From Sporocytophaga myxococcoides DSM 11118 (GTDB taxonomy: Bacteria; Bacteroidota; Bacteroidia; Cytophagales; Cytophagaceae), in the NCBI RefSeq assembly GCF_000426725.1, contig NZ_AUFX01000019.1, forward strand, positions 1 to 61,828: a stretch of 61,828 bases of DNA, written 5' to 3'. A program made the translations under genes and the position numbers. This document shows, piece after piece, positions 12,897 through 38,195 of the stretch (positions are counted from its first letter, which is position 1; each line of letters opens with the position of its first letter). The notes under the pieces are model-generated. The model searched no databases. It was not told the origin of the DNA and saw only the letters and a program-made list of their open reading frames with translations.

Positions 12897-14846
12897 TCAA
12901 TCTTTAATGAACTTGGTATTACTCTCACCAATTCTTAAGATATACTGTCCTACTGGCAATTTATCTACACTTAAGTGATTGTCATTAATGAAGCCTTTTT
13001 GCACGATGATCCCCATCATATTCAGGATAACATACGATCCATTGTCAGATACGTTTAGGCTGGATGAAGTGGGAACTGGTGCAATAGTAAGAGTTTTAGT
13101 TGCATTCACCTTCTTTTCTATAGATGATACAATGATGGATTCATTTCTGAATTCGTAGAATGTACCGTCTGATCTTCCCACTATCAAATCCTGATCTCCA
13201 TCCTTGTCTAAATCAACAAAGGCAGGGGCTGCTCCATAATCGTGGTTGCTTTGGTTATAAAACTCAAAAGGGTTATCTATGCCTGACAAGAGCGTAAACC
13301 CGGTTTGGTCATTTCTATAGTAGTATAATTTGCCAAAAAAATCTCCCATAAGAATATCCATATCACCGTCCTTGTCAAGATCGGAGACCGCGACTGCACT
13401 TGAGTGGCTCCCTACTTTAAGCCCGTTAAAAGGATTGTCTACTCCGGTTTTCTTTGTGAAAGTCATATTATCATTTTCCAGATAAATGATATCTCCCTGT
13501 AAGTTACCACAGAGTACGTCCATGTCATTATCGTTGTCCCAATCGATAAACAAAGGTTTTGTTGCTTTGTCTAAAAATATACCATCAAAAGGGTTAGCAT
13601 TGTCGGCTTGTTCTATAAACACACCATTTTCATTTTTAAAATACCTTGAAGTATAATCGTCATCTCCAGTCATCATATCTAAATCATCATCTCCATCCAA
13701 GTCGGCAAATGTTGCAGAACCGTTATTCGCCACAGTTATAGTACCAAAGGGATTGTTTTTACCTAGCATTTCGTAGTATACTCCGTCAATATTTTGGTAG
13801 TATTTAAAAGCTCCGTTCAGACTACCACTGATCATGTCTAAATCATTATCACCATCAATATCCGCAAAAGTCGGGGTTGACGTATTTATTGCATCAAAAC
13901 CGTACAGTGGGTTTTCTCGAATGACGTGAACAAAGGTGCCGTTATCATTACGGAATAGTTCAAAATGGTTTGTTCCATTACCACTTATCAAGTCCATGTC
14001 TGAATCTCCATCGATGTCAAAAAAGAAAGGCGTAGAGAATGAGTTTACACTAAGATTAGAGAAAGGGTTTGCAGCATTCTCTGCTTTCTCGTAGGTTCCA
14101 TTATTATTTAAAAATACATTAAACTTACCATCTTTATCACCACTGACTAAATCAAGATCTTTATCTCCGTCTACATCGTAAAATTCAGGAGAAGAGTATC
14201 CACTTACATAAATGTTTTCGAGAGGATTCTGTCCACTAATTGCTTTTTGAAAAAATACTCCATCTTCATTTTCAGCATATTCAAAGGAACCTGACGGCTC
14301 ACCTGTGACCATATCCAGATCACCATCTCCATCCAAATCTACGAATTCGGGATGATACATTGAACCAAAGAAAAAAGGCCTTTCATCACCTGTTCTATAG
14401 TAGTAAGCATTACCTATTCGTTCGTAATATTTTAGAGTATTTGAACTCGAAGATCCAAAGCCAAGAACCATATCCATGTCGTTATCATTGTCTGCATCAA
14501 CGAAAGCCGGGGATGTAAATATGCCGGCATCGATTGTATCCAGTATATTTTCTTCGCCAATAACTTCAGTAAAATAACCTTCAGTATTTTTAAAAAAGTG
14601 TAGATTACCTTCGACGTCACCGCTGACAAAGTCTGTGTCTCCGTCTTCGTCTAAATCTACAGCCACCAATCTTCCTATTCTATCCACTGCAATTGGTAAT
14701 GGTATTATTCTGTCTTTGCGTGACACTTCTTTGAATAGGATCTGACCGAAAGAACTATTGGAGGCCATAAGCCATAAAAAAATTAATATCGGTGTTTTAA
14801 AAAGGCTAATTTTTTTCGACGTATTAGTGTTTTGAAATATATTCAT
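12897..14846 (-). CDS. Secreted VCBS/FG-GAP repeat protein with T9SS sorting domain
   Basis: This is a 649-residue exported protein. A signal peptide covers about residues 1-35 (…MASNSSFGQ). About ten repeats of roughly 50 residues follow, each with a calcium-binding D-x-D-x-D-x-D-L-D/M-x-x-G motif (DLDEDGDTDF, DVDGDKDLDL, DIDGDSDMDL and so on). This predicts a beta-propeller of VCBS/FG-GAP type. The C-terminal 75 residues (APVPTSSSLNVS … LPVGQYILRIG) are a T9SS type A sorting domain, so the protein is probably displayed or released at the cell surface. No catalytic motif is visible; adhesion or calcium-stabilised surface binding is likely. It is monocistronic and uses the terminator at 12716. 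Confidence 0.88.
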   Translation of the reverse strand: MNIFQNTNTSKKISLFKTPILIFLWLMASNSSFGQILFKEVSRKDRIIPLPIAVDRIGRLVAVDLDEDGDTDFVSGDVEGNLHFFKNTEGYFTEVIGEENILDTIDAGIFTSPAFVDADNDNDMDMVLGFGSSSSNTLKYYERIGNAYYYRTGDERPFFFGSMYHPEFVDLDGDGDLDMVTGEPSGSFEYAENEDGVFFQKAISGQNPLENIYVSGYSSPEFYDVDGDKDLDLVSGDKDGKFNVFLNNNGTYEKAENAANPFSNLSVNSFSTPFFFDIDGDSDMDLISGNGTNHFELFRNDNGTFVHVIRENPLYGFDAINTSTPTFADIDGDNDLDMISGSLNGAFKYYQNIDGVYYEMLGKNNPFGTITVANNGSATFADLDGDDDLDMMTGDDDYTSRYFKNENGVFIEQADNANPFDGIFLDKATKPLFIDWDNDNDMDVLCGNLQGDIIYLENDNMTFTKKTGVDNPFNGLKVGSHSSAVAVSDLDKDGDMDILMGDFFGKLYYYRNDQTGFTLLSGIDNPFEFYNQSNHDYGAAPAFVDLDKDGDQDLIVGRSDGTFYEFRNESIIVSSIEKKVNATKTLTIAPVPTSSSLNVSDNGSYVILNMMGIIVQKGFINDNHLSVDKLPVGQYILRIGESNTKFIKD

Positions 14847-17785: not shown

Positions 17786-19411
17786 TCAATAAACCACCGA
17801 CAAATGAAATTTCTCTTCCCCATTATTGATTTCGATGGTATAATAACCTGTTTGAATAATTGAATTATCCTTTAATCGACCATCCCATTCGACAGGAACT
17901 GATAGTTCCTGAATAACCTGACCCCATTTATTAAATACCTTTGCCTTGCCTTGTTGGGTGAAGAAATAAATATCACTGATACCGTCATTATTGGGAGAAA
18001 AAAAGGCTTCCTTACAGGCTTCTATTGGAAGTATAATCTTATCGTCTATCAGCTTTATGCATCGATCACCGGCTTTGGCATATAAGCGGTATTCAGGATT
18101 ATTGAGATTATTAAAATTCCCATCCTTTGAGGTTACTTGTATTTTGGTTGATTTACTTTCAAGTATATAAGACAGATTATTCTTAGGCTGCAGGCCCGGA
18201 GATACTTTTATAGAACCAGGTTTTACACAAGTAGCACCGGTGACTTCCTTGCTTATGTGAGAAGGAATGAGACACTCAGATATAGTTACATTCTTTACCG
18301 CAGAAGTGATGGGCAGATCCGGAAAATCGGGATGATTAAGGGTGAAATAATAATCTCCACTTTGGCTTATGCTTGAATTGGGAAAGGATAATGTATCTGC
18401 ATTTCCAGTCCAGATTCGGTTATTGTTGTAATACCAGGAGTAATTGACGCCTGCTATCTGATTGGCTATTCCTGTTTTTAGATTGATGGTATCGTATTCC
18501 AGATAATTGGAAAATAAAGGATTTGGGAAAGTTTTTTGAGGTGCGATTTTATAGATGTCTCTAAATGTTGGAATATTCAACAAAGGTATGAAATCTTCAT
18601 AACTCAGATAATTATTTAACAATCCTACCTTTTCAAGATTCGGCAGACTATTCATACTTGCAAATGATTCAAGCATGTTATCATTGGCAAATATGCTTTT
18701 CAATTGTTGGTTTGCACTAAAGTCCGGTAATGTTTTGAGATAATTAAAGCCTAAGTTTAAAATTTTCAGATTAGAGAGATTGCTTATTACTGGTGCCTCA
18801 TTTAATCCGCAGTAATAAAGATGTAACTCTTCCAGTTTTATTAATACAGGTAGTTTTGGAACAACCTTAATATTGATATTACCTGCCAGATTTAAATAAG
18901 TTAAATTCAGTTGATTGCTCAGATCAGGGAAAGAAGGAAGATTGTTCTGACTCAGGTTCAAATACATTAAAGAGCTTGGTACTGGCAGGTTTGGAGCATT
19001 AGACAAAGCATTATTACTTGCATCTATTGATTTCAGATTATTGAAATTACTCAGGTTTGGAAGTTGAGTGATTGTATTTTCATTGATAGTGATCTCCTCC
19101 AGTTTGGTTAATCCTGATATTTCTTCCAGCGATGAGAGTTGGTTATGAGTAAGACTCAGACGTTTTGTATTGATGAAATATTGTATTCCGTCTACATTGC
19201 TCATTTTATAATTGATACAAATAATATCATGTGTAAAATTTGCTGCCGCATTAATATCTAACTCCTTCTGGCTGTTTACCAAAGTCGGCTCCAGATCAGT
19301 GAGACATTGTCTGAACCCATCATCTTTGATATAGTAGGTCTGAGCTAAGCCTGTTAGGGGAGCTATCAGTATCAATAAACAATAAGCAATATGTTTTTTT
19401 ATAGAACTCAT
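17786..19411 (-). CDS. Leucine-rich repeat surface protein with T9SS type B (CHU_C) domain
   Basis: This is a 541-residue exported protein. A signal peptide covers residues 1-23 (…LTGLAQ). About nine leucine-rich repeats occupy residues 75-290 with consensus L-x-x-L-x-L-x-x-N-x-L-x-x-x-P (LMYLNLSQNNLPSFPDL, LKILNLGFNYLKTLPDF). A region of Ig-like strands follows. The C-terminal 90 residues, CKEAFFSPNNDGISDIYFF through FNKWGQVIQEL to WDGRLKDNSIIQTGYY, are a gliding-motility-type CHU_C domain that directs type B T9SS secretion. Its start overlaps the stop of the anti-sigma-like gene by 4 bases, so the two are translationally coupled. It is the likely cargo of this cluster. Confidence 0.88.
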   Translation of the reverse strand: MSSIKKHIAYCLLILIAPLTGLAQTYYIKDDGFRQCLTDLEPTLVNSQKELDINAAANFTHDIICINYKMSNVDGIQYFINTKRLSLTHNQLSSLEEISGLTKLEEITINENTITQLPNLSNFNNLKSIDASNNALSNAPNLPVPSSLMYLNLSQNNLPSFPDLSNQLNLTYLNLAGNINIKVVPKLPVLIKLEELHLYYCGLNEAPVISNLSNLKILNLGFNYLKTLPDFSANQQLKSIFANDNMLESFASMNSLPNLEKVGLLNNYLSYEDFIPLLNIPTFRDIYKIAPQKTFPNPLFSNYLEYDTINLKTGIANQIAGVNYSWYYNNNRIWTGNADTLSFPNSSISQSGDYYFTLNHPDFPDLPITSAVKNVTISECLIPSHISKEVTGATCVKPGSIKVSPGLQPKNNLSYILESKSTKIQVTSKDGNFNNLNNPEYRLYAKAGDRCIKLIDDKIILPIEACKEAFFSPNNDGISDIYFFTQQGKAKVFNKWGQVIQELSVPVEWDGRLKDNSIIQTGYYTIEINNGEEKFHLSVVY

Positions 19412-20523
19412 AATGTAATTGTCACACTTCCTTTTAAAACTTCTCCATCTTCGTACTCGATCACAAATATAAAATATCCTGCTTCCAATCGCTCATATTT
19501 ATCTATTCCATTCCAGGTAGCAACTGTATTACGTTTCAAATCCATTTGATAAATGGGTGTTCCTGACTTTGTATAGATAGTCAATTTTCCTGCTTTATCA
19601 GTCACCGGAATATTCCAGACTTCACCAAAAGACGGATTAAAATAATCATTGATCGGGCAGCTTATTTCGCTTACCTGCGCAGTAAAACGCTGTTGACAGT
19701 TTTTGCTATCTGTTATCAGCAACTCATAATTTCCAGCTTTAAGTCCTGAATTGCTATAAACCTCTCTCCCATTTAAAAACAGATTCTGAGTATATGGCAC
19801 AGTGCCTCCTGAAATGTTTATAGCTTCAATTTTACCATTTGTCTTACCAATACATGCAGGTGTGGTATTGATTTGGGCCTTCCACTGTATCAGGTCACAT
19901 GGTTGGATATTTTCATCTTTGGCCTTTGTGCCAGATATGCTTATATATTTTGTATCCTCGTATTTAGAAACCTCTGGTTTGATATCGGCATTGTCAGCAG
20001 GTGTTTTAGGCAGTATCGTATCTACTATAACACTATAACTTTCGGATGGTGGAATCCCGGCATTATTGCTTTTTAGCATTTTATTATTTTCGGAATGAAC
20101 AATCGGTGATTCCAGATTGGGTTTCTTTTCTACATATGATTTCTCAATAGCACTGCTCCCTCCTACTTTCTGCTCATTCCCAGAATTTTCTATAGATTGT
20201 TTTGCAGCTGTGTCTTCTTTTTTATTGTATTGTAGTATGCCTATTGTCACTAAGATCAAAGTAAGGAGCGCACCTCCAACCATACCCTTTTTAATGTACT
20301 TATTTTTATTTCCTAACTTTACTTCTTCCTGTTTAGCTAAATCTTTGATAGTAAGCAATCTATTCTTAAAAACCAGTTTTTGAAGAAAGCGCGCATTTTC
20401 AACCTTCTCTGCGAGTTCAGGATCATGCAGCAATGCCGCTTCAAATTCCTGAAGTTCTGCACCTTGCAGATTTCCTTTCAGAAAAGCATCAAGATTATTA
20501 TATATGTCTTTAGGATAACTCAT
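19408..20523 (-). CDS. Anti-sigma-like inner-membrane protein with a CHU_C-like periplasmic domain
   Basis: This is a 371-residue single-pass protein without a cleavable signal. Residues 1-75 are cytoplasmic and match the general anti-sigma pattern: L-D-A-F-L-K-G-N-L, then E-F-E-A-A-L-L-H-D-P-E-L. A membrane helix lies at about 80-99 (GMVGGALLTLILVTIGILQY). A low-complexity linker (100-210) follows, then a SprB-like repeat (C-I-G-K-T-N-G-K-I … G-G-T-V-P-Y) and a final domain with F-N-P-S-F-G-E-V-W, Y-T-K-S-G-T-P-I-Y, T-W-N-G-I-D-K, G-Y-F-I-F-V-I-E and G-S-V-T. That last domain resembles CHU_C. It lies between the sigma gene (14-base overlap) and the cargo gene (4-base overlap). The anti-sigma role is inferred from topology and operon position. 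Confidence 0.75.
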   Translation of the reverse strand: MSYPKDIYNNLDAFLKGNLQGAELQEFEAALLHDPELAEKVENARFLQKLVFKNRLLTIKDLAKQEEVKLGNKNKYIKKGMVGGALLTLILVTIGILQYNKKEDTAAKQSIENSGNEQKVGGSSAIEKSYVEKKPNLESPIVHSENNKMLKSNNAGIPPSESYSVIVDTILPKTPADNADIKPEVSKYEDTKYISISGTKAKDENIQPCDLIQWKAQINTTPACIGKTNGKIEAINISGGTVPYTQNLFLNGREVYSNSGLKAGNYELLITDSKNCQQRFTAQVSEISCPINDYFNPSFGEVWNIPVTDKAGKLTIYTKSGTPIYQMDLKRNTVATWNGIDKYERLEAGYFIFVIEYEDGEVLKGSVTITL

Positions 20524-21103
20524 TAAGCAATCGGCTTTTTATTTCCGGTTTTTGTTCCAACTCAAGATCCAATTTGTCTTTACATCGTTTCAACTGCATT
20601 TTCGCTGCACTTACAGTTGAAAATCCCATTCTCAGGGCTATATCTTCCATCAGCATATTGTAGAATATGTCGTAGGTCAGCAGTTCTATGCATTTTTCGC
20701 CTAATCCTGAAAAGATAGATCTGATCAGACTTTCGCCTTTATTAATCTCATCAACAATCTGAAAATCCGGATCAGAAATGGATTCAGCAAGCGTTTCATC
20801 GTGGTTTTCTACAGATGTAAATCGTTTGTTTCTCTTTAATTTATTCAACCATCTGTTTTTTGAAAGGGTGAATAAATATCCGTTTATGGTGTACTTTTCT
20901 TCATCGTACTTCCCGCTCATAATCTGGGAATAGAGGTACATAATGGAGTCCTGAAAGACATCTGAAGCATCATCACCAATTCCACCGTGCGACACCACAT
21001 ATTTTTTTACTTTCGGGAAAATTGTTTTATATAGCAGGGAAATTACCTGTTGATCCTGACCGGCCCTAATCAAATGAGGTATCTCTTTTTCTGTTATTTT
21101 CAT
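20510..21103 (-). CDS. ECF RNA polymerase sigma factor
   Basis: This sigma-70 family factor is 197 residues from the ATG at 21103; a TTG two codons upstream is possible but weaker. Region 2 is seen in D-D-A-S-D-V-F-Q-D-S-I-M-Y-L-Y and Y-L-F-T-L-S-K-N-R-W-L-N-K. Region 4 includes G-E-K-C-I-E-L-L and a helix-turn-helix around M-E-D-I-A-L-R-M-G-F-S-T-V-S-A-A-K. It heads an operon with the anti-sigma-like and LRR genes and lies 83 bases from the divergent PorP/SprF gene. The intervening region is therefore a candidate self-regulated bidirectional promoter. The target genes cannot be read from sequence alone. Confidence 0.9.
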   Translation of the reverse strand: MKITEKEIPHLIRAGQDQQVISLLYKTIFPKVKKYVVSHGGIGDDASDVFQDSIMYLYSQIMSGKYDEEKYTINGYLFTLSKNRWLNKLKRNKRFTSVENHDETLAESISDPDFQIVDEINKGESLIRSIFSGLGEKCIELLTYDIFYNMLMEDIALRMGFSTVSAAKMQLKRCKDKLDLELEQKPEIKSRLLNELS

Positions 21104-21186
21104 CTGCAATATTGAAACATCTCAGGCTTTGAATTAGTAACGAAAGTCAGAAAAAATAATGTGTAATTTAATTTTTGCATCAGTAA
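21104..21186. promoter_or_regulatory. Divergent promoter region between sigma factor and PorP/SprF genes
   Basis: This 83-base AT-rich spacer must carry both promoters. It contains GGCTTTGAATTAG and TAATTTTTGCA, which resemble Bacteroidota -33/-7 elements, but no motif can be assigned to the ECF sigma with certainty. Confidence 0.4.
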
Positions 21187-22092
21187 ATGGCTCGTAGTCT
21201 ATGGGTTTGGGGGATTTTATTTGTGAAATTTGTAACATGCAAAGCACAGATAGCTCCTTTATATCCTGATATCCCAGCTACTTACTCTTTTAACATGCCT
21301 TTGGTTACACCTGCTTATATACCTCTCGAAGGTAAATATATACTGGGTAGCATTTATAAATTTAAACTTAAAGAATCCAACCTAGCCATATTTGACATGA
21401 ATGCCGCCATAGTCTTTGACGGTAAAGGTCAGAACAAACAATTGGTTCGGTTAAATTTTTCCAACGAAAAAGAAGGCCCATATATCAGTACCTCCCGGGC
21501 TTCTGCAAACTATGCCTATAAATTGGCGCTTACCCATGATCTCAATATGTCTGCCGGATTGTCTCTAGGGTTTGTGAACAGGATCTATATGACACCTTCT
21601 TCATCAAATCAGGGCAGTTTTTTTCTTCCCGATGGAAATATTGGATTAACTATAAACTATAAAGAATTGGAAATTGGAAGTGCATTGATGCAGTTTCCCA
21701 ATTCTAAAGAAACTCCATTACAGTCGACGCAACAGGCGAAACGTTTCTATCATATGTATGGTATGTACAAACATGATATCAGCCCTTACTGGTCACTCAA
21801 AGAATATATGTTGGTAAGGGTATTGCCAGAAATAACCACTCAGCTTATTGGCGGCTTCAACATCATATATCAGGATATGTATGAGGCAGGCTTTGTATAT
21901 TATCAAAGACGAGGCATCACGTTTCAATTGGTCTATGGGCTTCCCGGTGAAAAATATCCTCTTGCACTCAGTATGGCTTATAACTCTTCTTTATTGACTC
22001 AAAGTCCACTCTGGGTAGATTCTTTTGAACTTGGTTTGAAGGTACGAATCAATAAGAAGAAGGAAAGTGGATTGACAATTGGGAAATTGTAA
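21187..22092 (+). CDS. PorP/SprF family T9SS outer-membrane protein
   Basis: This is a 301-residue protein with a signal peptide at residues 1-20 (…VTCKAQ). The rest is a run of amphipathic strands typical of the PorP/SprF beta-barrel family: FNMPLVTPAYIP near the start, the L-N-M-S-A-G-L-S-L-G-F-V-N segment, LPDGNIGLTINY and a C-terminal S-F-E-L-G-L-K-V-R-I strand. SprF-like proteins anchor or help secrete type B cargo through T9SS. The gene is divergent from the sigma/anti-sigma/LRR operon, so its likely partner is the type B LRR protein encoded there. Confidence 0.85.
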   Translation: MARSLWVWGILFVKFVTCKAQIAPLYPDIPATYSFNMPLVTPAYIPLEGKYILGSIYKFKLKESNLAIFDMNAAIVFDGKGQNKQLVRLNFSNEKEGPYISTSRASANYAYKLALTHDLNMSAGLSLGFVNRIYMTPSSSNQGSFFLPDGNIGLTINYKELEIGSALMQFPNSKETPLQSTQQAKRFYHMYGMYKHDISPYWSLKEYMLVRVLPEITTQLIGGFNIIYQDMYEAGFVYYQRRGITFQLVYGLPGEKYPLALSMAYNSSLLTQSPLWVDSFELGLKVRINKKKESGLTIGKL

Positions 22093-26222: not shown

Positions 26223-28058
26223 CTATTCTTTATATACTTTTATTGTTTGAGCAGAATCTCCATAGCTTACTTTTAATAAATAAATGCCCTGAGAAAGGTC
26301 ATATGCAGGTATGGTAAATTTACCACCATTAACAGCTGATTCAGCTGATTTGAATTTGCTGCCATAGCTATCATATATTTCATAACTTACCAAATCCAGA
26401 GAAGCTGTTGCATTGATCTCAACATTTATATATTCTCCTGCAGGATTTGGTACTACTGCAATTTCTCCAGTGTTTACAGGGAAAATCAGTGATGTTGCAA
26501 TATTAGGAGCAGTTGTTACGAAATTCTTAATTTTCACAAATGCATCATTATTGTTTTCATTGGTCTCATCATTGGTCTTATATCCGTCTGCACGAGCGAT
26601 GATGTAGTTGTCGTCTGACCAGGATTGAGGTAAATTCAAAGTCGCTTGATTGCTTTTGTTCTGACCTGGAAGTATTTCCTCATCTTGTGTATAGCCCAGA
26701 TATTGATCATCTGCACTGTATGTACTGTCTTTAGAGATGTAAAAGTAAGTAAAGGTATATTTTGACGAAATTGTGTTTCCGGAATTGTAAACATTGTATT
26801 CAATTTTAATTTTGTTGCCATTATACAATGAGACTATTTTAATATTGCTGATGCGCAGATCCATATATAAACGTTTACCTTTGATATATACATAGGTAAT
26901 GTTGTTAGCCTCATTTGTTTCATGATTCTGGTTTTTAGAATCAGTTTGTATAATTAGATAGTATGAATCCTCAGATATAGGAAAATTAAATTTAAATGGA
27001 AGTTTTCCCTGGGGTTGAATTCTACCCAGATAGTCCATACCTAAAAGTTTATCTGAAGAATCAAGCACAGTGTCATTCGAGATATAAAAATTCAAATCAG
27101 TACCGTAAGAAATATTTTCTCCAATATTGATAGTATGCCCTTCAATCGTATAAAACCCATTTTCTGCAATGATAGTATCATGAAGAGAGACAGGAATCAG
27201 GTCTACTATAAAATCAGAAATATGGACACGCTGTATATTAACATTATTATCTTCATTGGATTCTGTAACAATGGAGTCACCGTCCACTTTCGAAATGAGG
27301 TAATAATAACCTGAATCAACCTGAGGAAGTTTGAATTGATCAATAGATGAAATAGTATCTCCAGGATTTAATTGATATATTGGGGATTTATGCAGAAGAA
27401 CATCTTTTGAATCAATTACATTATCCTTGGAAAGGTAATAGTTAATGTAATTACCTCCTGCAATAGATATCCCATTGTTTTTGACTTTTGCCGTAGCTTC
27501 AATATCTGCACCTGGAGTATATTCTGCAGTCTGATATGATGTATTTTCAAACAATAAATCTGAATCTTTGCCATAAATTTCAATGGCAGTTAATGTGATA
27601 TTATTATTCTCATTGTATTCATCTATCACATTATTAAAGTCTGACACTATGAGGATATGATATACTCCTTCTTCCAGTTTTAATTTTTGAAGATTAAAAT
27701 TCTTTGAAATATATCTTTCCTTTGTTGGGGCTTGAGCCTGAGCAAAAGCGGTATCTAAAAATATATCCTTCGTCAGATCAAGAACAGAGTCTTTAGATAA
27801 ATAGTAAGCTATAGTGTAATTCTTAGTATTCACATCTCCCGCATTAGATTCAGTATGAGCGACAAATAAATTAGGATAGGCAAATGAACTTGCACCTGTT
27901 GGAAATATATCTATTGTTGATTGCTTTTCGGAAGTAAGACTAGATATATGTGAAAGATTGTTAATCTTATCAGCCTTAGCATAATCAGTCATGGAGGCTC
28001 CTACGTGGATAAATCCCAGAAACAGAAATTTCAGTAATAATGATCTATTTTTTTTCAT
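26223..28058 (-). CDS. CARDB-repeat surface protein with T9SS sorting domain
   Basis: This is a 611-residue exported protein with a signal peptide at residues 1-29 (…DYAKA). Four CARDB-like beta-sandwich repeats of about 110 residues follow. Each ends in a V/I-T/D-E-S/T-N-E-x-N-N motif (VIDEYNENNNIT, IVTESNEDNNVN, NHETNEANNIT, DETNENNN), which is typical of CARDB calcium- or adhesion-related modules. Y-Y-L-S-K-D motifs recur in each repeat. The C-terminal 75 residues (VVPNPAGEYINVEI … LSQGIYLLKVSYG) are a T9SS type A sorting domain. An adhesin or extracellular scaffold is likely; no enzyme domain is seen. Confidence 0.87.
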   Translation of the reverse strand: MKKNRSLLLKFLFLGFIHVGASMTDYAKADKINNLSHISSLTSEKQSTIDIFPTGASSFAYPNLFVAHTESNAGDVNTKNYTIAYYLSKDSVLDLTKDIFLDTAFAQAQAPTKERYISKNFNLQKLKLEEGVYHILIVSDFNNVIDEYNENNNITLTAIEIYGKDSDLLFENTSYQTAEYTPGADIEATAKVKNNGISIAGGNYINYYLSKDNVIDSKDVLLHKSPIYQLNPGDTISSIDQFKLPQVDSGYYYLISKVDGDSIVTESNEDNNVNIQRVHISDFIVDLIPVSLHDTIIAENGFYTIEGHTINIGENISYGTDLNFYISNDTVLDSSDKLLGMDYLGRIQPQGKLPFKFNFPISEDSYYLIIQTDSKNQNHETNEANNITYVYIKGKRLYMDLRISNIKIVSLYNGNKIKIEYNVYNSGNTISSKYTFTYFYISKDSTYSADDQYLGYTQDEEILPGQNKSNQATLNLPQSWSDDNYIIARADGYKTNDETNENNNDAFVKIKNFVTTAPNIATSLIFPVNTGEIAVVPNPAGEYINVEINATASLDLVSYEIYDSYGSKFKSAESAVNGGKFTIPAYDLSQGIYLLKVSYGDSAQTIKVYKE

Positions 28059-29153: not shown

Positions 29154-30197
29154 TCATACAATAGATTCTATTACCGATTTTTCAATGTATTTTAAATAAG
29201 GTTGTGACGAATAATTGAGAATAGAATAATAAAAGCAACTATATTTTTTTACTAAATCCATTCGTGCTTCTGGAAATATAATTTCAATAGAACCATCATC
29301 TTGCTTTTTTTTCAATATCTGATAAATGAATTGTTTTTGGTTAGAAGTTATTTTATCCAAATTATCAAAATCAATATTATATGATTTGATAAAAAAACGT
29401 TCTATAGGCATTGAACATGAATAAAAAAATGGATTTCCCAAAATACCTAAATTATATATGCTATCTTTTTCTAGCTTCTTACTTAAAGGATCCATTTTAG
29501 CAACAAATAAGTTTAAATAGGTAGGCAAGTAAAATTCTCCATGTTTCATTACTTTGATGGCTTTTTTAAAATCCAATTCAAATCCAAATAAAACATTTTC
29601 CTTTACCTGTCTCGTATATCTCTTACAATGTTTGGTAGAATTTTTAGAATCAAAAGTAAATTCAACAAAAATATCTTTAACCAATTTCTCATAAAAGACG
29701 ATTATGTTTTCAATATTAAATGCAGATCCTATTGTAAGAAATTTATCAGCTTCAGAGACATTTATCTTCTCGTAAAAATTTAAATGAGGCGCTGTATTGA
29801 ATGCATGTTTATCAAAGAATTTTTGAATGCATTTTGCCAACAATATATTTTCATCATGATTGTATTTATTAAGAACAGCCGCAGGATAATAAGGTAGTTT
29901 TCCAAATAAGCTATTAATAAAACAGATTTCATTTTGAAAAAAAACATTTAAATCATCTACACGTAATCCTAAAGTGCCACTCTTAGGATTACGCAACATA
30001 TCTTCCATCACTTCAATGCACTGGCTTTTATCAAAAAGAGTAACATTATTAAAATCGGGATTTATATAAAGCAACATAATTTCAAAATATGTATCCAAAC
30101 ATTCTTCAAGTAATTTTATGGAATCTTCATATAATTCTTTCTTATTCTTAGTAAGAGCTACTTCTATTGCTTTGATATCTAAATAATCCGGATTCAT
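29154..30197 (-). CDS. Hypothetical protein of unknown function
   Basis: This gene encodes 347 residues from the ATG at 30197; a TTG seven codons upstream is possible. I do not recognise the family. It has no signal peptide or membrane helix. The sequence is rich in lysine, phenylalanine and asparagine, AT-rich in codon use and predicted largely helical. Notable segments are D-L-N-V-F-F-Q-N-E-I-C-F-I-N-S-L-F-G-K-L-P-Y-Y and C-K-R-Y-T-R-Q-V-K. It is isolated between two repeat-filled gaps, with no neighbour on the same strand within 390 bases. That fits an accessory, horizontally acquired gene. Confidence 0.6.
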   Translation of the reverse strand: MNPDYLDIKAIEVALTKNKKELYEDSIKLLEECLDTYFEIMLLYINPDFNNVTLFDKSQCIEVMEDMLRNPKSGTLGLRVDDLNVFFQNEICFINSLFGKLPYYPAAVLNKYNHDENILLAKCIQKFFDKHAFNTAPHLNFYEKINVSEADKFLTIGSAFNIENIIVFYEKLVKDIFVEFTFDSKNSTKHCKRYTRQVKENVLFGFELDFKKAIKVMKHGEFYLPTYLNLFVAKMDPLSKKLEKDSIYNLGILGNPFFYSCSMPIERFFIKSYNIDFDNLDKITSNQKQFIYQILKKKQDDGSIEIIFPEARMDLVKKYSCFYYSILNYSSQPYLKYIEKSVIESIV

Positions 30198-30340
30198 TTT
30201 TTTAAATAGTTTTTGCAAGTTACATATTTAAGCCGTTGAGAAATAATAAAATCTTCTTGAACTTTTGATCACCTTTGTTTTTATGCCTGAAGGATTTGGT
30301 AACTTGAAGAATTGATTGACCCGCTATAAATAAAATGTAA

Positions 30341-30386
30341 CATTATCATAGCCATCATTTAATCACAAAAATCACAGTTCAGACAA
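30341..30386. repeat. Short repeat, TTCAGACAA family
   Basis: CATTATCATAGCCATCATTT and AATCACAAAAATCACAGTTC followed by AGACAA is the 3' portion of the larger repeat found at 39786-39925 and 43101-43243. Confidence 0.55.
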
Positions 30387-30432
30387 AAAGATAGTCGGGA
30401 GCAATAGTTGATAAGGCAACTTGCTGCTCCAT

Positions 30433-30579
30433 TGCCAGTCCCCCCCGACAGGTCACAATTTCCCTTCTGCTACCTTTCTATATATTGAGTTAAATTTTCT
30501 TCATCATATCTTTTATCCTATTTGTCAGTGATAAGATTAATTGCTACAGAAAGAGTGTCCTGTCAGGGGACAGGCCACG
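30433..30579. repeat. Hairpin-ended repeat, subfamily B copy 1
   Basis: The interior (CCTTTCTATATATTGAGTTA, CTTCATCATATCTTTTATCC, TATTTGTCAGTGATAAGATT, AATTGCTACAGAAAGAGTG) is almost identical to 35109-35260. The left end is slightly degraded (GCCAGTCCCCCCGACAGGTC). The right hairpin is TGTCCTGTC-AGGG-GACAGGCCAC. It ends 10 bases before the stop codon of the dehydrogenase gene at 30589. Confidence 0.85.
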
Positions 30580-30588
30580 ATGGAGCTG

Positions 30589-31497
30589 CTACAGCTCCTG
30601 ACCAGGTATAATATTGATAACAACATTTCCCTTTTTACGGAATGATTCTACATAAGCATGTGCTTCTCTGATTTGCTCGAGTGTATATCTTCTGTCAATT
30701 ACCGTGATAAGATTTCCGGTTTCAATCATTTCTTTTAAGGTCGACAGATCATCAGGCCTTGATTTCGGAGAATCCATGACAGTAGTAAACCTACCTCCCG
30801 GTTTTAATAAATGTCTGCATTCAGATTTAGAGGTTTTTCCTACCGCATCAAAAACAATATCGAAACGCGTTTCTGTTTTTAAAAAATCAGTTTGGGTATA
30901 ATCAATAATGTGATGTGCACCAAGCTGCGAAACCAGACGGGTGTTTGCATTACTACATACTGCAGTAACCTCAGCCTTAAACGATTTTGCGATCTGCACA
31001 GCAAAAGTTCCCACACTTCCGGATGCGCCATATATCAGCACCTTATCATTGGCCTTGACATTGTTCTGTCGCAAGAAACGCAATGCAGTAAGTCCGCCAA
31101 TCGGAACCGTAGCGGCCTCTTCAAATCTCATATTCGAAGGCATTAATGAAATCAATTCATTGGCCGGAAGGCATGCATACTCTGCATAGCCCCCAAATCT
31201 TAAACCACACGATGCAAAAACAGCATCGCCTCGCTTAAGCGATTGAACTTTTTTTCCGACCTCCTCCACAACTCCTGCCAATTCAAACCCGAGCACTTTC
31301 ACTCTTCTGGGTTTGAACAATCCATTAAATACTCTTGCAAGAAACGGATCTGCCTTTCGCAAGCGCCAATCGCCTGCTGATACTGAAGTAGCATAAACTC
31401 TTATTAATACTTCATTTCCTTTAGGAATAGGTTTGTTAATGTCTTTTAACTCGAGAACATCAGGCGCTCCGTATTTTTCGTAAACAACCGCTTTCAT
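30589..31497 (-). CDS. NAD(P)-dependent medium-chain alcohol dehydrogenase/quinone oxidoreductase
   Basis: This is a 302-residue zinc-lacking MDR enzyme. The N-terminal GroES-like fold includes V-L-I-R-V-Y-A-T-S-V-S-A-G-D and G-F-E-L-A-G-V-V-E-E-V-G. The nucleotide-binding Rossmann motif is VLIYGASGSVGTFAVQIAK, and a second signature is F-D-A-V-G-K. No structural-zinc cysteines are present, as in quinone oxidoreductases. The reaction is probably NADPH-dependent reduction of a quinone or enone. It ends the likely transcription unit that starts with the LytS/LytTR pair. Confidence 0.87.
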   Translation of the reverse strand: MKAVVYEKYGAPDVLELKDINKPIPKGNEVLIRVYATSVSAGDWRLRKADPFLARVFNGLFKPRRVKVLGFELAGVVEEVGKKVQSLKRGDAVFASCGLRFGGYAEYACLPANELISLMPSNMRFEEAATVPIGGLTALRFLRQNNVKANDKVLIYGASGSVGTFAVQIAKSFKAEVTAVCSNANTRLVSQLGAHHIIDYTQTDFLKTETRFDIVFDAVGKTSKSECRHLLKPGGRFTTVMDSPKSRPDDLSTLKEMIETGNLITVIDRRYTLEQIREAHAYVESFRKKGNVVINIIPGQEL

Positions 31498-31613
31498 TGT
31501 TAAAGTCTTATTAGTTTTTTATCAGTATTTTGAAGGAAAGAAGCATATAGAGCAATATATACACACTTCTAATCCTAATGTTGCCTCCCGTAAGTCATAT
31601 AGAGGAGTTTCTA

Positions 31614-32336
31614 TTATTTGCTTTGAGTGTCGGGTGTGGGTTTAAAGCCCTTTACAATGAGATATACGCCCAGTGAGAGCTCAAATACTGCTACAGGAAC
31701 AGCAGTGAGCGCAATCAATGGGGCACGCTGTCCGATAAAATCAAACAATATAAGGAAGTCACCTGCTAAAAGTACCGGTCCTCCGATTATTCCGATAAGC
31801 GAAAGACTGCGCGGTACCAACCTCGACTGATATAGCAAGATGCCAAGCAATATGTCGTTTATGGCTGGCATGAGACTCTGCCCGATAAGAAAAATACGGT
31901 CATACATAATAACCAGTGTGCGGCTGGTGACCAATGCTTCAGTACCTGCTGACCTTTGGTGCAACGTCACCACCGTCAGAAGGAACATTACTCCAATGAA
32001 GATGGTCGTTGCTTCCAGTATGCGGAAGCTTACCAGACACAGTGCCATTCCTTCATTTTTCTTTCTGAGCACAGGGTAAAGTGCAACGGCAGAGCCGATA
32101 CATGTGAACCCGACAATTAGTTCAAGGATGTTTCCAATAATCACAGCAGTGTCAGAACCAGAACTAAGTATATAGTTCTGAGCATGAATCTGATCGTAAA
32201 GAGCAAGCGTCGGAATCGAAACAAAAGTGAGCAGATAAAGGATGCCTGCAGTAAGTGAAGTTTTTCGAAGAGAACTTACCGGGGCTGGCATTGTCTGTTT
32301 AATCATGACTCCTGCTGCATTTAAATTCGCATTCAT
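31614..32336 (-). CDS. DUF4386 domain membrane protein
   Basis: This is a 240-residue polytopic protein with about six membrane helices (near residues 28-46, 65-85, 105-125, 150-165, 180-198 and 207-228). The segment A-G-I-L-Y-L-L-T-F-V-S and the S-R-L-V-P-R-S-L-S-L-I-G-I-I-G-G-P are typical of the DUF4386 family, whose function is not known. It lies between the beta-barrel and dehydrogenase genes, with gaps of 81 and 116 bases, all on the same strand. Co-expression with the LytS/LytTR system is plausible. Confidence 0.82.
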   Translation of the reverse strand: MNANLNAAGVMIKQTMPAPVSSLRKTSLTAGILYLLTFVSIPTLALYDQIHAQNYILSSGSDTAVIIGNILELIVGFTCIGSAVALYPVLRKKNEGMALCLVSFRILEATTIFIGVMFLLTVVTLHQRSAGTEALVTSRTLVIMYDRIFLIGQSLMPAINDILLGILLYQSRLVPRSLSLIGIIGGPVLLAGDFLILFDFIGQRAPLIALTAVPVAVFELSLGVYLIVKGFKPTPDTQSK

Positions 32337-32417
32337 TTTTTTGTGGTTAAGATTTATTGAATTTCTTAATGTATTATGGTTGATAAAACCTTCACTGCTG
32401 TGAGGAGCCGAGACTTT

Positions 32418-33110
32418 TTAGTTTATTGCGAGCGGGTTTCTTTTCCACGGTTTTAAACCATACAGACTAAGGGTGAGGTATCTGTTATACATCTCTTTGT
32501 CGTGGGAGATATTAGTTAATCCGTAAGAATATCTCACATCCACGACATACTGCTTTTGTTTTATACGAAATGTATATCCTCCACCTACCTGAACACCTGC
32601 ATCCAGGCGTTTAAAACCTCCATTTGAATTGCTAAAAGATAGTTTTTCGGCCGAATCATCTCTTTTTATTTTACCCGCAACATTGTAGGCAATAGAAGGG
32701 CCTGCATTCACATGGAATTTTCCAAAGTGAATTCGCGCCAGTACCGGGGATTCAATGGTGTATAATCTCAGGGTTTGTTCCTCGGTGGTCAAAGGATTAT
32801 TGGATTTCAGTTTGCCGCCTTTCATTACAAAGTAAACTTCCGACACGACCGACAAGCGCGGAGTGATACCTGCCTGAAATGACGCACCTACCTGTGCCCC
32901 TGAAACAGATTTCTTGTAATCTGCTATAGCTCTGTTTGACTTACCATAGTTGAAGTTTGAACCGACGATATTTAATATAAAGTGGAAAGACGTTTGGGGA
33001 CTCTTTGCCTCCTGGGCTTTTTCAGGTGTTACTTCAGTTGTCTGACTAAATAATTTTCCGGATAAGAAAATCAGACCTAGTACTATTCCCTTTGTTGCAT
33101 TTTTATTCAT
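32418..33110 (-). CDS. Outer-membrane beta-barrel protein (PorT-like)
   Basis: This is a 230-residue protein from the ATG at 33110. I chose this over an upstream TTG because the signal peptide MNKNATKGIVLGLIFLSGKLFSQ begins there. The mature protein shows alternating strands typical of outer_membrane_beta-barrel_2 proteins: VGASFQAGITPRLSVVSEVYFV, FHVNAGPSIAYNVAGK, VQVGGGYTFRI and a terminal L-T-L-S-L-Y-G-L strand. It could be a small porin-like or assembly factor. It lies downstream of the LytTR response regulator gene by about 118 bases. Confidence 0.78.
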   Translation of the reverse strand: MNKNATKGIVLGLIFLSGKLFSQTTEVTPEKAQEAKSPQTSFHFILNIVGSNFNYGKSNRAIADYKKSVSGAQVGASFQAGITPRLSVVSEVYFVMKGGKLKSNNPLTTEEQTLRLYTIESPVLARIHFGKFHVNAGPSIAYNVAGKIKRDDSAEKLSFSNSNGGFKRLDAGVQVGGGYTFRIKQKQYVVDVRYSYGLTNISHDKEMYNRYLTLSLYGLKPWKRNPLAIN

Positions 33111-33228
33111 ATTTCCCTGTTTTTTGAACAAAGAAATAGAAATGGTTCTGGCCCAGAAATTTAATTATGCAAAAGCTGGAAGGATGTCTGCATGTTGCCG
33201 TTTTTGTTCTGCGAAATAAATGGCCAGA

Positions 33229-33924
33229 TTATGCTCCGGTTTGGATGTGCTGATAGAAAGTTTCTTTATAGGTGTCAGAAATGGGTATCAATTGGTCGGC
33301 AACTTTAATCCGGCCACGTTCTATAGACTCTATTTTATTGAGGGCAACCATATATGATTTATGCACCCGACAAATCAGGCTTGAAGGAATCAGCTTTTCG
33401 AATTCACTGAAGTTTTGAAGAGTCATAATTTTCTTGTTGAGCGTATGAATTCTCCGATAATCTCTCATCCCTTCAATATATACGATTTCATTCAGCATAA
33501 TCTTTTCCAAACGATTTTCGGTTTTCACAAAAATGAATTCCAGAGGAGGTTCTGAGCTACGAAAAGTCAGGTTCTCCTGAGCTTTGTTCACCGCCTGTAA
33601 AAAGCGATTGAATGTAAATGGCTTTAAAAGATAGTCGGTTATTTTCAATTCGTATCCTTTCAAAGCATATTCCTGGTAAGCAGTTGTAATAATAACCTGG
33701 CTGTTGATTTTTGTACTTTCAAGGAGCTCTATCCCGGAAAGCTCGTCCATATTAATATCAAGAAACAATACATCTGTCTTGTTGTTGTTCAGATAGGCTA
33801 GTCCCGTGAGCGCATTGTCGAAGGTGGCACTCAGCTGCAAAAAAGGTACTTTTTCTACAAAGCTTTTTACCTTCTCCAGAGCCAAGGGCTCATCTTCAAT
33901 TATTACACAGGTATACTTATCCAT
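33229..33924 (-). CDS. LytTR-family response regulator
   Basis: This is a 231-residue two-domain regulator. The receiver domain (1-120) has the acidic pocket E10/D11, phospho-acceptor D56 in V-L-F-L-D-I-N-M-D, and K102 in L-L-K-P-F. The LytTR DNA-binding domain (135-231) includes I-V-Y-I-E-G-M-R-D-Y, C-R-V-H-K-S-Y-M-V-A-L and I-P-I-S-D-T-Y-K-E. The start codon overlaps the end of the upstream kinase gene by 8 bases, so the two form a coupled pair. Likely targets are the barrel, DUF4386 and dehydrogenase genes just downstream, but no binding site can be named. Confidence 0.93.
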   Translation of the reverse strand: MDKYTCVIIEDEPLALEKVKSFVEKVPFLQLSATFDNALTGLAYLNNNKTDVLFLDINMDELSGIELLESTKINSQVIITTAYQEYALKGYELKITDYLLKPFTFNRFLQAVNKAQENLTFRSSEPPLEFIFVKTENRLEKIMLNEIVYIEGMRDYRRIHTLNKKIMTLQNFSEFEKLIPSSLICRVHKSYMVALNKIESIERGRIKVADQLIPISDTYKETFYQHIQTGA

Positions 33925-34984
33925 TTTGAATAATCAGGTTTACTCGGTACAACTCATTGTCATTATTAACCTCTAACGTATGCTTATCCGGATATATAAG
34001 ACTTAGTCTTTTCTTAATAAGTTCATTACCCAATCCTCCTGATATTTGCAGAACCGATTTTGAATCATATTTATTTTCGCAGGTGAGACGAATAGATTCA
34101 TCATCAATATTAATCTTAATCGTAATGGCATTTTCCATTTTCTTATTTGTAGTATGCTTGAAGGCATTCTCAATGAATGGAATAAAGATCATGGGGGCTA
34201 TTAATCTGTCACCAATATTACCTGTTACCGAAAAATAAACATAGGTCTCATTGGCAGTCCTTATCTTTTGAAGTGCGATATATTTTTCCAGATATTCAAT
34301 TTCCTTCAAAAGCAGGATTTCATTTGCCCGTGTTTCGTAAAGTACGAATCGAATGATATCCGATAGCTTATTTAAATAATCAGAAGCCAAAACGGCATCT
34401 CTTAAAATTAATGAGTCAATATTATTAATTGTATTAAACAAGAGATGAGGGTCAAATTGCTTCTTTATCAGCATCATCTCCATTTCGTGGTTCTTTTCCC
34501 TCAAAATTTCCTTGAGCTTTATTTCATTATACCAGGTGATGAATCCCTTCATGACGAGTGCAACCCCTCCGCTTAACAAGCCGATAGTGGTCATCACCAA
34601 TATTGCCTGAGGTGCAGTAGATCTGCCATTTTTACCTCCCTCATCCATATCAATTATTCGGCCTGATTCTATAAAAAAGCGCAGTAAAATATATGCCAGG
34701 ATGGCTACTACTAGTGAAATAAGTATTCCTATGAATATGGATTGAAATATCTTTTTCTTTTGAAGATATTTTGCAAACAAAAGAAAATAATAAGAATAAA
34801 AGGATCCGACAGAAGGAATAAATGCAAATAGCAAAATGGTGTTTAAAGCATTCATCACACGGGATATATCATGGTTGCTTCTATAGTATAAAGCCAAAGC
34901 GATAAATACCAGCAGGAAATAGCAAGCCCAGAAGCCTACATGAAGCAAAAAGACGAATGTTTTTTTCACAACTAAATATACCAA
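33917..34984 (-). CDS. LytS-family sensor histidine kinase
   Basis: This is a 355-residue kinase. Four membrane helices lie at about residues 9-31, 44-65, 80-102 and 125-147. The His_kinase domain has phospho-accepting H180 in KKQFDPHLLFNTINNI, followed by an HATPase domain with F-I-E-N-A-F-K-H and G-L-G-N-E-L-I-K-K-R-L. The open frame starts with TTG at 34984; no ATG lies before the first helix, so a non-ATG start is likely. It is co-transcribed with the LytTR regulator. The loop between helices 3 and 4 is short, so the stimulus is probably sensed within or at the membrane. Confidence 0.9.
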   Translation of the reverse strand: MVYLVVKKTFVFLLHVGFWACYFLLVFIALALYYRSNHDISRVMNALNTILLFAFIPSVGSFYSYYFLLFAKYLQKKKIFQSIFIGILISLVVAILAYILLRFFIESGRIIDMDEGGKNGRSTAPQAILVMTTIGLLSGGVALVMKGFITWYNEIKLKEILREKNHEMEMMLIKKQFDPHLLFNTINNIDSLILRDAVLASDYLNKLSDIIRFVLYETRANEILLLKEIEYLEKYIALQKIRTANETYVYFSVTGNIGDRLIAPMIFIPFIENAFKHTTNKKMENAITIKINIDDESIRLTCENKYDSKSVLQISGGLGNELIKKRLSLIYPDKHTLEVNNDNELYRVNLIIQNG

Positions 34985-35108
34985 TTAAAAAGCCCAAAGA
35001 CAACAAAGTAATTGCGAACATTGGTAATCCTCCTATCTTGTAGAACCTAACTAAAAAAGTGTTTAAAAGACAGATTTTAAATACTTTACCAGTAATACTA
35101 ATCCTAAT

Positions 35109-35260
35109 CCGTGGCCTGTCCCCTGACAGGCCACAATTTTCCTTCTGCTTAACCTTTCTATATATTGAGTTAATTTTTCTTCATCATATCTTTTATCCTA
35201 TTTGTCAGAGATAAGATTAATTGCTACAGAAAGAGTGGCCTGTCAGGGGACAGGCCACGG
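35109..35260. repeat. Hairpin-ended repeat, subfamily B copy 2 (intact)
   Basis: This 152 bp element has 26 bp perfect terminal inverted repeats beginning CCGTGGCCTGTC. Each end also folds on itself (CCTGTC-CCCT-GACAGG at the left, CCTGTC-AGGG-GACAGG at the right). The 100-base interior is nearly identical to 30433-30579. No ORF is present. No convincing target-site duplication is visible. The rest of 34985-35415 shows no gene. Confidence 0.9.
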
Positions 35261-35415
35261 TGTAGATAGACGGGGAATATTTTTGTTTACCACTGCAACA
35301 CCTATCCAAATTCATCGATTCAACTTTTATTAATGCATATTGAAATGTCAGAAGTTAAGAAGATTTTCGTTACTCTTTTTGTATATTAACAGGGTTTTAG
35401 TTTTTGTTTAGGCAA

Positions 35416-37819: not shown

Positions 37820-37884
37820 AAGAATAAATAACTGATTTTCATTATTTGCAGTGGTTGATATTCTTTTCATTTTCATGAATTGCC

Positions 37885-37910
37885 GTGGTTGTACCTTTTC
37901 GGCCAACCAC
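37885..37910 (+). terminator. Possible terminator after the DUF4407 gene
   Basis: GTGGTTG (37885-37891) pairs with CAACCAC (37904-37910) across a 12-base loop, 66 bases beyond the stop. No T tract follows, so confidence is low. The rest of 37820-38195 contains no other recognisable feature. Confidence 0.35.
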
Positions 37911-38195
37911 CTACCAGTTAACTGATATAATTTATTTGAGTCATTTAAAGTATTTAATTTAAACAAAAATGTAATCTATAGGTTAGGCTGGCACAATTTG
38001 GTTTCATTGTTATGTTAACTTTTACTGATAAAGGATTCAATGCGGCCATAATTATCGATAATTTTTAAACCTTTTTAAAAGACTATCAATTCCAATAAAG
38101 AAGGTTGAAAATGGTACAACGTTTACTAACATTCTTTAAACAATAATAAGATTATAATATAAGTTAAGTTTAATTAAGGAAAGTAAATCATAATT

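Follow-up and report, generated by a model that had tools for sequence, protein, structure and literature searches.

A four-gene cluster of Sporocytophaga myxococcoides DSM 11118 was analyzed as a candidate regulatory module linked to the type IX secretion system (T9SS). The window, i.e., the whole stretch of DNA studied, comprised 61,828 nucleotides (contig NZ_AUFX01000019.1, assembly GCF_000426725.1), and the cluster occupied positions 17786–22092. It encodes an extracytoplasmic function (ECF)-type sigma factor, an anti-sigma-like single-pass inner-membrane protein, a type B T9SS cargo, and a PorP/SprF outer-membrane carrier, which form one repeated, conserved module. It may work as a trans-envelope sigma/anti-sigma switch, one of ten paralogous ones in the genome, that reads its own PorP/SprF carrier; the chances of this reading were judged to be about even.

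The sigma gene (20510–21103, minus strand) encodes 197 amino acids from its ATG, a TTG start at 21109 also being possible. It overlaps by 14 bases the anti-sigma-like gene (19408–20523, minus strand, 371 amino acids), which in turn overlaps the cargo gene (17786–19411, minus strand, 541 amino acids) by 4 bases. The PorP/SprF gene (21187–22092, plus strand) is divergent, with a gap of 83 bases counted from the sigma ATG. Domain boundaries and thresholds were set by the authors, and gene starts were taken from the longest open frames, which may lie too far upstream (e.g., the sigma gene of locus L265). The source genome (6.34 Mb) carries the T9SS translocon gene sprA (TIGR04189, 2521 bits).

Eight more full-length matches and one shorter relative of the anti-sigma were found in the source genome. 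All nine extra loci held a sigma factor, an anti-sigma, a CHU_C cargo, and a PorP, giving ten modules with the window, and the window gene order was seen in seven of the ten. Together with 96 loci from related genomes, the collection comprised 106 loci, which were chosen by anti-sigma match and include orthologs, so that the events counted are not independent of one another. An anti-sigma with an SprB-like and/or CHU_C-like domain above the thresholds was present in 90 of the 106, and all four genes in 83 of these 90; the PorP gene was divergent from the sigma, anti-sigma, and cargo genes in 62 of the 83 complete loci. For the mirror-tree analysis, 69 complete modules with both periplasmic domains were used, and 37 of the 106 loci were excluded beforehand (missing, truncated or split genes, variant architectures). 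The sigma and anti-sigma genes overlapped or lay ≤10 bases apart in 68 of the 69 modules, and the cargo start was ≤10 bases from the anti-sigma end in 57/57 modules (those within −60 to +100 bases).

The seven incomplete loci included five that lie on a short contig or close to the end of a contig (L206, L223, L228, L240, and L242); L214 (no cargo found) and L244 were not explained in this way. Among the 16 other loci, nine held N-terminal-only relatives without PorP or cargo (L219–L221, L245–L247, and L276–L278), L215 had marginal domain scores and no cargo, and L217 and L235 had domain-bearing anti-sigmas with the N-terminus below the threshold, PorP and cargo being present. In four loci of one genome (L249, L266, L272, and L274, all G003), which do have PorP and cargo, stop codons interrupted the anti-sigma gene, reflecting either base-calling errors or real decay. 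Two variant architectures with the order sigma-antisigma-cargo-PorP were also observed. Anti-sigmas of 244–246 amino acids without CHU_C occurred in three genomes (L029, 5314–6054; L273, 6010–6744; L275, 6055–6795), and anti-sigmas with CHU_C and without the SprB-like domain were found in L201 (3371–4231), L203 (5983–6843), and L205 (5964–6818). The L029 anti-sigma was considered as a pseudogene, and this was rejected since its length recurs in L273 and L275 of other genomes.

A near full-length module anti-sigma was detected in 15 of the 19 family genomes (G000–G014), five complete modules being present in G006 (L190–L194). Among 291 genomes of the order, 22 carried it, namely those 15 and G033, G041, G049, G056, G066, G079, and G142. 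Among 395 genomes of the phylum, only the source genome had a module anti-sigma at E ≤ 1e-18, and its C-terminal part was partially matched in two more genomes. The order and phylum scans scored about six and five candidates per genome, respectively, and absences there are soft.

The anti-sigma begins with a helical domain (residues 1–75; 20299–20523, minus strand, as are the following segments), for which AlphaFold2 (AF2) predicted helices 5–15, 22–33, and 35–72 at modest predicted local distance difference test (pLDDT) values of 43–77. It is presumed to be the cytoplasmic sigma-binding domain by analogy: the gene lies directly 3′ of the sigma gene and the helical N-terminus precedes one transmembrane helix, which is a class I-like anti-sigma layout. 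The Hx3Cx2C zinc motif was not seen in the window protein. The transmembrane segment (about residues 81–100; 20224–20283) was supported by hydropathy and by the AF2 helix 81–109, and all 69 module anti-sigmas had a single hydrophobic peak (median start at residue 80, range 74–105) and no second transmembrane-like stretch. A long periplasmic linker follows (about residues 101–208; 19900–20223), with pLDDT <50 over residues 98–205 and an estimated median length of 103 residues (range 88–140) in the 69 modules. The AF2 model as a whole, built with 11 sequences, had a mean pLDDT of 64.2 and a predicted TM-score of 0.36, and contained one transmembrane helix and no barrel.

Two domains make up the rest of the protein. 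The SprB-repeat-like domain (about residues 209–289; 19657–19899) was modeled as strands over residues 215–284 (pLDDT 84–92); the SprB repeat match of the window protein was sub-threshold (17.4 bits, cut-off 28), while the Pfam SprB repeat was matched by 43 of 89 relatives at E ≤ 0.01. Four cysteines of this domain were invariant across the nine full-length paralogs of the source genome. The C-terminal CHU_C-like domain (about residues 291–371; 19411–19653) was modeled as strands over residues 291–369 (pLDDT 79–91). The CHU_C match of the window protein at residues 301–367 was also sub-threshold (22.3 bits, cut-off 27); at the family level, CHU_C was matched by 75 of the 89 relatives at E ≤ 0.01 (best 1.8e-11). 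When nine further-related anti-sigmas were scanned with Pfam, CHU_C scored above the cut-off in L201 (39.0) and L244 (34.4), below it in L237 (24.7), and was absent in the six N-terminal-only relatives. A profile of the 89 anti-sigmas matched the solved grappling-hook protein GhpA (whole-sequence E 3.5e-35) in two stretches, the best of which placed profile positions 288–361 on the C-terminal residues 5826–5896 of GhpA; the window protein alone gave zero matches among solved structures. The sequence comparisons thus indicate that the anti-sigma tail is homologous to CHU_C, the type B T9SS tag. A sequence-only reading of this stretch, which had given the same gene coordinates, overlaps, and divergent gap, had proposed a CHU_C-like domain in the membrane protein and had named its absence, or a gene order not conserved in relatives, as grounds for refutation; the domain and the conserved order were both borne out.

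A PNGDGxxD-type motif is the hallmark of the CHU_C type B tag. It was found in none of the 69 module anti-sigmas, and in its strict form in 55 of the 69 module cargo C-terminal domains (CTDs). According to the accessible part of one report, mutation of any of five conserved motifs in the SprB CTD stopped secretion (PMC12618676), and the hallmark was assumed here to be one of these five. Since the hallmark loop is missing and the anti-sigma is an inner-membrane protein without an N-terminal signal peptide, its tail probably does not function as an export tag; the domain appears to have retained the fold and lost the export function. The possibility that the anti-sigma is an ordinary T9SS substrate was rejected because of the missing hallmark and the missing N-terminal signal peptide (the hydrophobic segment starts at residue 74–105). 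FecR (taken here to be PF04773) and DUF4974 domains were not found in the window anti-sigma or among the 18 families matched by the 89 relatives, and membership of the FecR family was rejected for lack of the FecR domain.

The window cargo is a leucine-rich repeat protein (LRR_4, 62.8 bits, cut-off 27) with an N-terminal signal-peptide-like segment as judged by eye; the hydropathy threshold for such a segment was passed by 47 of the 69 module cargos. Its CHU_C type B CTD (about residues 448–541; 17789–18070, minus strand) scored just sub-threshold with both CHU_C (26.4 bits, cut-off 27) and TIGR04131 (31.6, cut-off 35), and the hallmark position reads SPNNDGISD. CHU_C was matched by 49 of 74 module cargos at E ≤ 0.001. 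Leucine-rich cargos were searched for in the main text of one proteomics paper, where the term did not occur.

The carrier matched PF11751 (72.9 bits, cut-off 22.3), and its TIGR03519 match was sub-threshold (57.0, cut-off 90.55). Of the 30 PorPs of the source genome, the nine encoded next to CHU_C-bearing anti-sigmas had the nine lowest PF11751 scores (43.8–124.7 vs. at least 147 bits), and likewise the five module PorPs of G006 were the five lowest of 20 (57.7–162.4 vs. at least 177.9 bits). The tenth module of the source genome (L029), with its anti-sigma lacking CHU_C, had a canonical PorP (248 bits). A PorP tree was built from 69 sequences, comprising 35 chosen module PorPs (of 93 loci with PorP) and 34 of the 35 other PorPs of the two genomes. 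A branch with 100/100 support separated 30 module PorPs, including that of L235, from the 34 others and five module PorPs (L029, L273, L201, L203, and L205). Within the other PorPs, these five clustered together with 100/94 support, and all came from loci with the order sigma-antisigma-cargo-PorP. The program warned of six long branches, all of them module PorPs. Most module PorPs, including nine of the ten in the source genome, thus belong to a separate, divergent lineage, and since the five group elsewhere, the sigma/anti-sigma family is associated with two lineages of PorP. No anti-sigma of the module family was found around the 20 other PorP genes of the source genome or the 15 others of G006, and the PorP profile gave one meaningless match and nothing else among solved structures.

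The window PorP has no SprF-type cysteine-bearing periplasmic C-tail. A cysteine motif in the last 20 residues was found in 0/28 standard-architecture module PorPs, 0/7 variant ones, and 22/34 canonical ones, and any cysteine in this region in only 1/28 module PorPs, the window tail having none. The sequences therefore suggest that module PorPs lack the kind of cysteine link reported between SprF and GldK. The tails of 22 of the 34 canonical PorPs of the two genomes (L279–L312) carried a PCP-like motif, which may serve for attachment in the periplasm much like the SprF cysteine tail. One canonical PorP gene (L286, source genome contig C2, about 30000–38500) was followed on the same strand by a weak ECF sigma match, possibly another, unrelated PorP-sigma link.

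The window sigma factor matched Sigma70_r2 (PF04542, 25.5 bits, cut-off 24) in Pfam, and no separate region 4 match was obtained in that scan. Sub-threshold matches to TIGR02985 (48.1 bits, E 1.4e-12, cut-off 126.4) and TIGR02937 (40.5 bits, E 2e-10, cut-off 42.9) covered about residues 23–180. Nine paralogs were found in the source genome, each in the same gene context. The control set consisted of the best 80 sigma relatives listed from one collection scan using one sigma peptide pattern, and is a sample. The closest named relative among the matches listed came from a Sporocytophaga metagenome-assembled genome (MAG) and was 96% identical (L103). In the 11 best of the 80 (L103–L113), an SprB-like and/or CHU_C-like anti-sigma was present in ten (the gene of L108 was incomplete) and a PorP gene in ten (the exception, L110, is a 3.7-kb contig). 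With the same models, the remaining 69 had neither a PorP (0/69) nor a domain-bearing anti-sigma (0/69). A chance neighborhood was rejected on these 69 lower-ranked listed relatives and the 83 of 90 complete loci. Three non-module sigma relatives in two Bacteroidales MAGs and one Bacteroidetes MAG (L149, L170, and L176) had a CHU_C-type gene of 776–791 amino acids nearby on the other strand, maybe an independent sigma/T9SS link.

Promoters were searched for in 76 intergenic regions in 51 groups, some orthologs still being in separate groups (e.g., L027 and L272). The pattern TTAC-N17-GTA was found towards the sigma gene in 20 of the 51 groups, whereas other spacings from 12 to 21 gave 0 to 5, and the same pattern towards PorP gave 4. 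The strict form was found towards sigma in 18/51 groups (shuffle mean 0.67, maximum 3) and towards PorP in 1/51 (shuffle mean 0.57, maximum 3). In the window, an ECF-like variant, CGTTAC-N17-TGTTTC, lies 5′ of the sigma gene (21114–21142, minus strand), a layout shared by the orthologs L248 and L249. Another 23 loci with other gene orders were searched with a looser pattern and without a shuffle control. A TTTAC...TTTGTA site stood upstream of the displaced cargo gene in L024, L262, and L265 (one ortholog group) and in L238, and the looser site before sigma was present in L262 and L238 and doubtful in L024. Loci of the L028 type had the looser site before sigma, L264 and L271 having only a GTC-ending match before the cargo gene; in L224 and L226 it was seen before both sigma and PorP. 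The pattern was read as a predicted promoter through which the sigma operon would regulate itself, the cargo being a target in many modules.

The proposed switch would operate as follows. The inner-membrane anti-sigma would hold the ECF sigma factor through its cytoplasmic N-terminus, and the flexible linker of about 100 residues would let the SprB-like and CHU_C-like domains reach towards the outer membrane. There, they would read the state of the PorP/SprF carrier of the module, i.e., whether it is loaded with cargo or whether the cargo is bound to something outside. Active sigma factor would transcribe the sigma-antisigma-cargo operon, which would create feedback on how much cargo reaches the carrier. 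In the homeostatic polarity, an empty carrier would engage the anti-sigma tail, and sigma would be released until the carrier is filled. This polarity is preferred, though weakly, and sensing of a surface ligand in the manner of FecA is about as likely; the slight lean to the empty-carrier homeostat comes from the cargo being a product of the operon and PorP mostly not. CHU_C homology without the hallmark is what would be expected of a tag-like reader that has to stay out of the translocon as long as the inner membrane anchors it. The more specific proposal that a non-exportable mimic of the cargo tag, carried by the anti-sigma, reads carrier loading from the periplasmic side, matching surface protein to free carriers in some ten parallel circuits, is tentative and rather doubtful. 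The secretion-coupled circuit suggested in the sequence-only reading stays plausible given the CHU_C-like domain, the kept gene order, and the ECF-like pattern, but the general T9SS machinery that it had named as the partner gives way to a specialized PorP lineage, which favors reading of the state of the cognate carrier. Its idea that the CHU_C-like domain competes in the translocon is unlikely, the hallmark being present in 0/69 and the protein being anchored in the inner membrane without an N-terminal signal peptide.

Several results weigh against carrier reading by this switch. The partial distance-matrix correlation with PorP given sigma was 0.277 for the anti-sigma CHU_C-like domain vs. 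0.304 for the cytoplasmic N-terminus, and 0.202 vs. 0.202 with equal columns. The known partner, the cargo CTD, reached a partial correlation with PorP of only 0.349, so the mirror-tree has little power. The strict promoter pattern was missed by 33/51 groups, among them the window, the variant of which was not counted; the looser pattern found nothing before sigma in L265, L201, L203, and L205, and nothing before sigma or cargo in L237, L225, and L266. The strict hallmark is missing also from 14 of the 69 module cargos. In L244, a sigma gene and a CHU_C anti-sigma gene stand without PorP and cargo in 12.6 kb. The anti-sigmas of L029, L273, and L275 stop after the SprB-like domain despite the presence of cargo and PorP, and those of L201, L203, L205, L236, and L237 have no SprB-like domain by the model used here. 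Because these variant modules lack one or the other domain, neither periplasmic domain is indispensable.

Three other explanations were considered. The anti-sigma might read unsecreted cargo or, as the sequence-only reading had it, the general T9SS machinery. Its CHU_C-like domain would then compete for, or be bound by, a component shared by the T9SS or cargo piling up in the periplasm, a backlog of secretion setting sigma activity. The homology of its tail and the cargo tag fits this, as does the correlation of their distance matrices given sigma (0.34; the N-terminus gave 0.16 and the SprB-like domain −0.11), but the tag hallmark is missing in 69/69 anti-sigmas, and a module-specific input is a better fit to ten parallel copies, each with a cargo and a PorP of its own (the PorP being of the divergent lineage in nine). 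Such a backlog sensor was considered improbable.

The signal might also be regulated intramembrane proteolysis of the RseA/RsiW type: a damaged or misfolded module protein would trigger cleavage of the anti-sigma, with the CHU_C-like and SprB-like domains capping or shielding the cleavage site. The long disordered linker, the single transmembrane helix, and the variants without one or the other periplasmic domain agree with such a signal, which would leave unexplained why PorP and cargo stay with the pair in 83/90 loci; proteolysis could equally be a step downstream of the carrier-reading switch. As an explanation in its own right, it was given a slim chance. The same slim chance was given to mere co-regulation of neighbors, in which the sigma pair would answer another stress, cargo and PorP would be its output, and the CHU_C-like domain would be a non-sensing Ig-type extracytoplasmic domain. 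Related pairs without detected CHU_C or PorP exist (L219–L221, L245–L247, and L276–L278, the last six also without Pfam CHU_C), and the promoter pattern mostly has cargo and not PorP behind it. Against this, what is appended to the anti-sigma is a member of the very domain family carried by PorP/SprF proteins, and PorP has been retained, from two lineages, though it is mostly not behind the ECF-like pattern.

In FecI-FecR-FecA cell-surface signaling, an ECF sigma factor and an inner-membrane anti-sigma are combined with an outer-membrane receptor. The module resembles it in having an ECF sigma and a downstream single-pass anti-sigma, the periplasmic end of which would read an outer-membrane beta-barrel, and differs in that no FecR/DUF4974 domain occurs in the anti-sigmas scanned, the outer-membrane part consists of a PorP/SprF carrier and a T9SS surface protein, and a CHU_C-like domain is the presumed reader. 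At the locus, the adjacent outer-membrane gene is PorP/SprF and not a TonB-dependent transducer, other window genes being outside the scan. By analogy, the module may work like FecI-FecR-FecA, and it was not assigned to that system. A Bacteroidota anti-sigma that itself spans both membranes and links sigma to the outer membrane has reportedly been described in 2024, judging by the title of that study; the module anti-sigma differs in having one transmembrane helix and no barrel, a separate PorP gene supplying the outer-membrane part.

The other comparisons rest on accessible portions of the sources. As in PorXY-SigP-PorA of Porphyromonas gingivalis (PMC7712824, PMC4800418), a T9SS CTD protein would influence an ECF sigma; there, however, T9SS components are controlled by a single SigP on which a two-component system acts, whereas here a CHU_C-like membrane anti-sigma occurs in many paralogs. 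Like the SprB-SprF and PG1035-PorP pairs (PMC12635249, PMC9143113, PMC12618676), the module pairs a PorP/SprF carrier with a type B cargo, the genes of the two usually lying together, and type B cargos and SprF-like carriers are described as cognate pairs (PMC12618676). Those carriers are tied to GldK or PorE in the periplasm, whereas the module carriers have no cysteine C-tail motif and are sigma-linked. In Flavobacterium johnsoniae, the cysteine-bearing C-tail of SprF forms a disulfide bond with periplasmic GldK only once SprB has been exported and loaded (PMC12635249), so that cargo loading is felt on the periplasmic side in that species. Class I ECF/anti-sigma pairs share the small helical cytoplasmic domain, mostly followed by a transmembrane helix, and the position beside sigma (PMC7406223); in contrast to them, Hx3Cx2C was not seen in the window protein and the periplasmic part is a T9SS-type domain. 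In the same source, a class I anti-sigma adjoins only 6% of Bacteroidetes ECFs. In F. psychrophilum, T9SS genes have been reported to have ECF-type promoters, and the genes downstream of such promoters include one anti-sigma/sigma pair (PMC9723704).

No published description of a PorP/SprF-linked or CHU_C-bearing anti-sigma was found in the open-access subset of the literature searched, mostly as titles and abstract starts, and no such system appeared in the accessible parts of PMC9723704, PMC7712824, PMC12045153, and the T9SS effector review PMC10202324. The module was rated as new as a variant of sigma/anti-sigma cell-surface signaling.

Elsewhere in the window, two minus-strand genes encode large secreted-looking proteins, one with DxDxDGD-like repeats (12897–14846) and one with CARDB-like repeats (26223–28058); by eye, both end like a type A T9SS tag.

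Little seems to be understood of how T9SS users adjust the amounts of surface proteins made to the carriers that export them, the nearest reports, in their accessible parts, being those on PorXY-SigP of P. gingivalis and on the ECF-type promoters of T9SS genes in F. psychrophilum. If the proposed switch is real, sigma/anti-sigma cell-surface signaling would extend beyond TonB-dependent receptors to a second class of outer-membrane proteins, and a secretion tag would have been turned into a sensor domain. The degraded copy of an export tag on the inhibitor suggests that cells may switch genes by sensing the contents of their own surface carrier.

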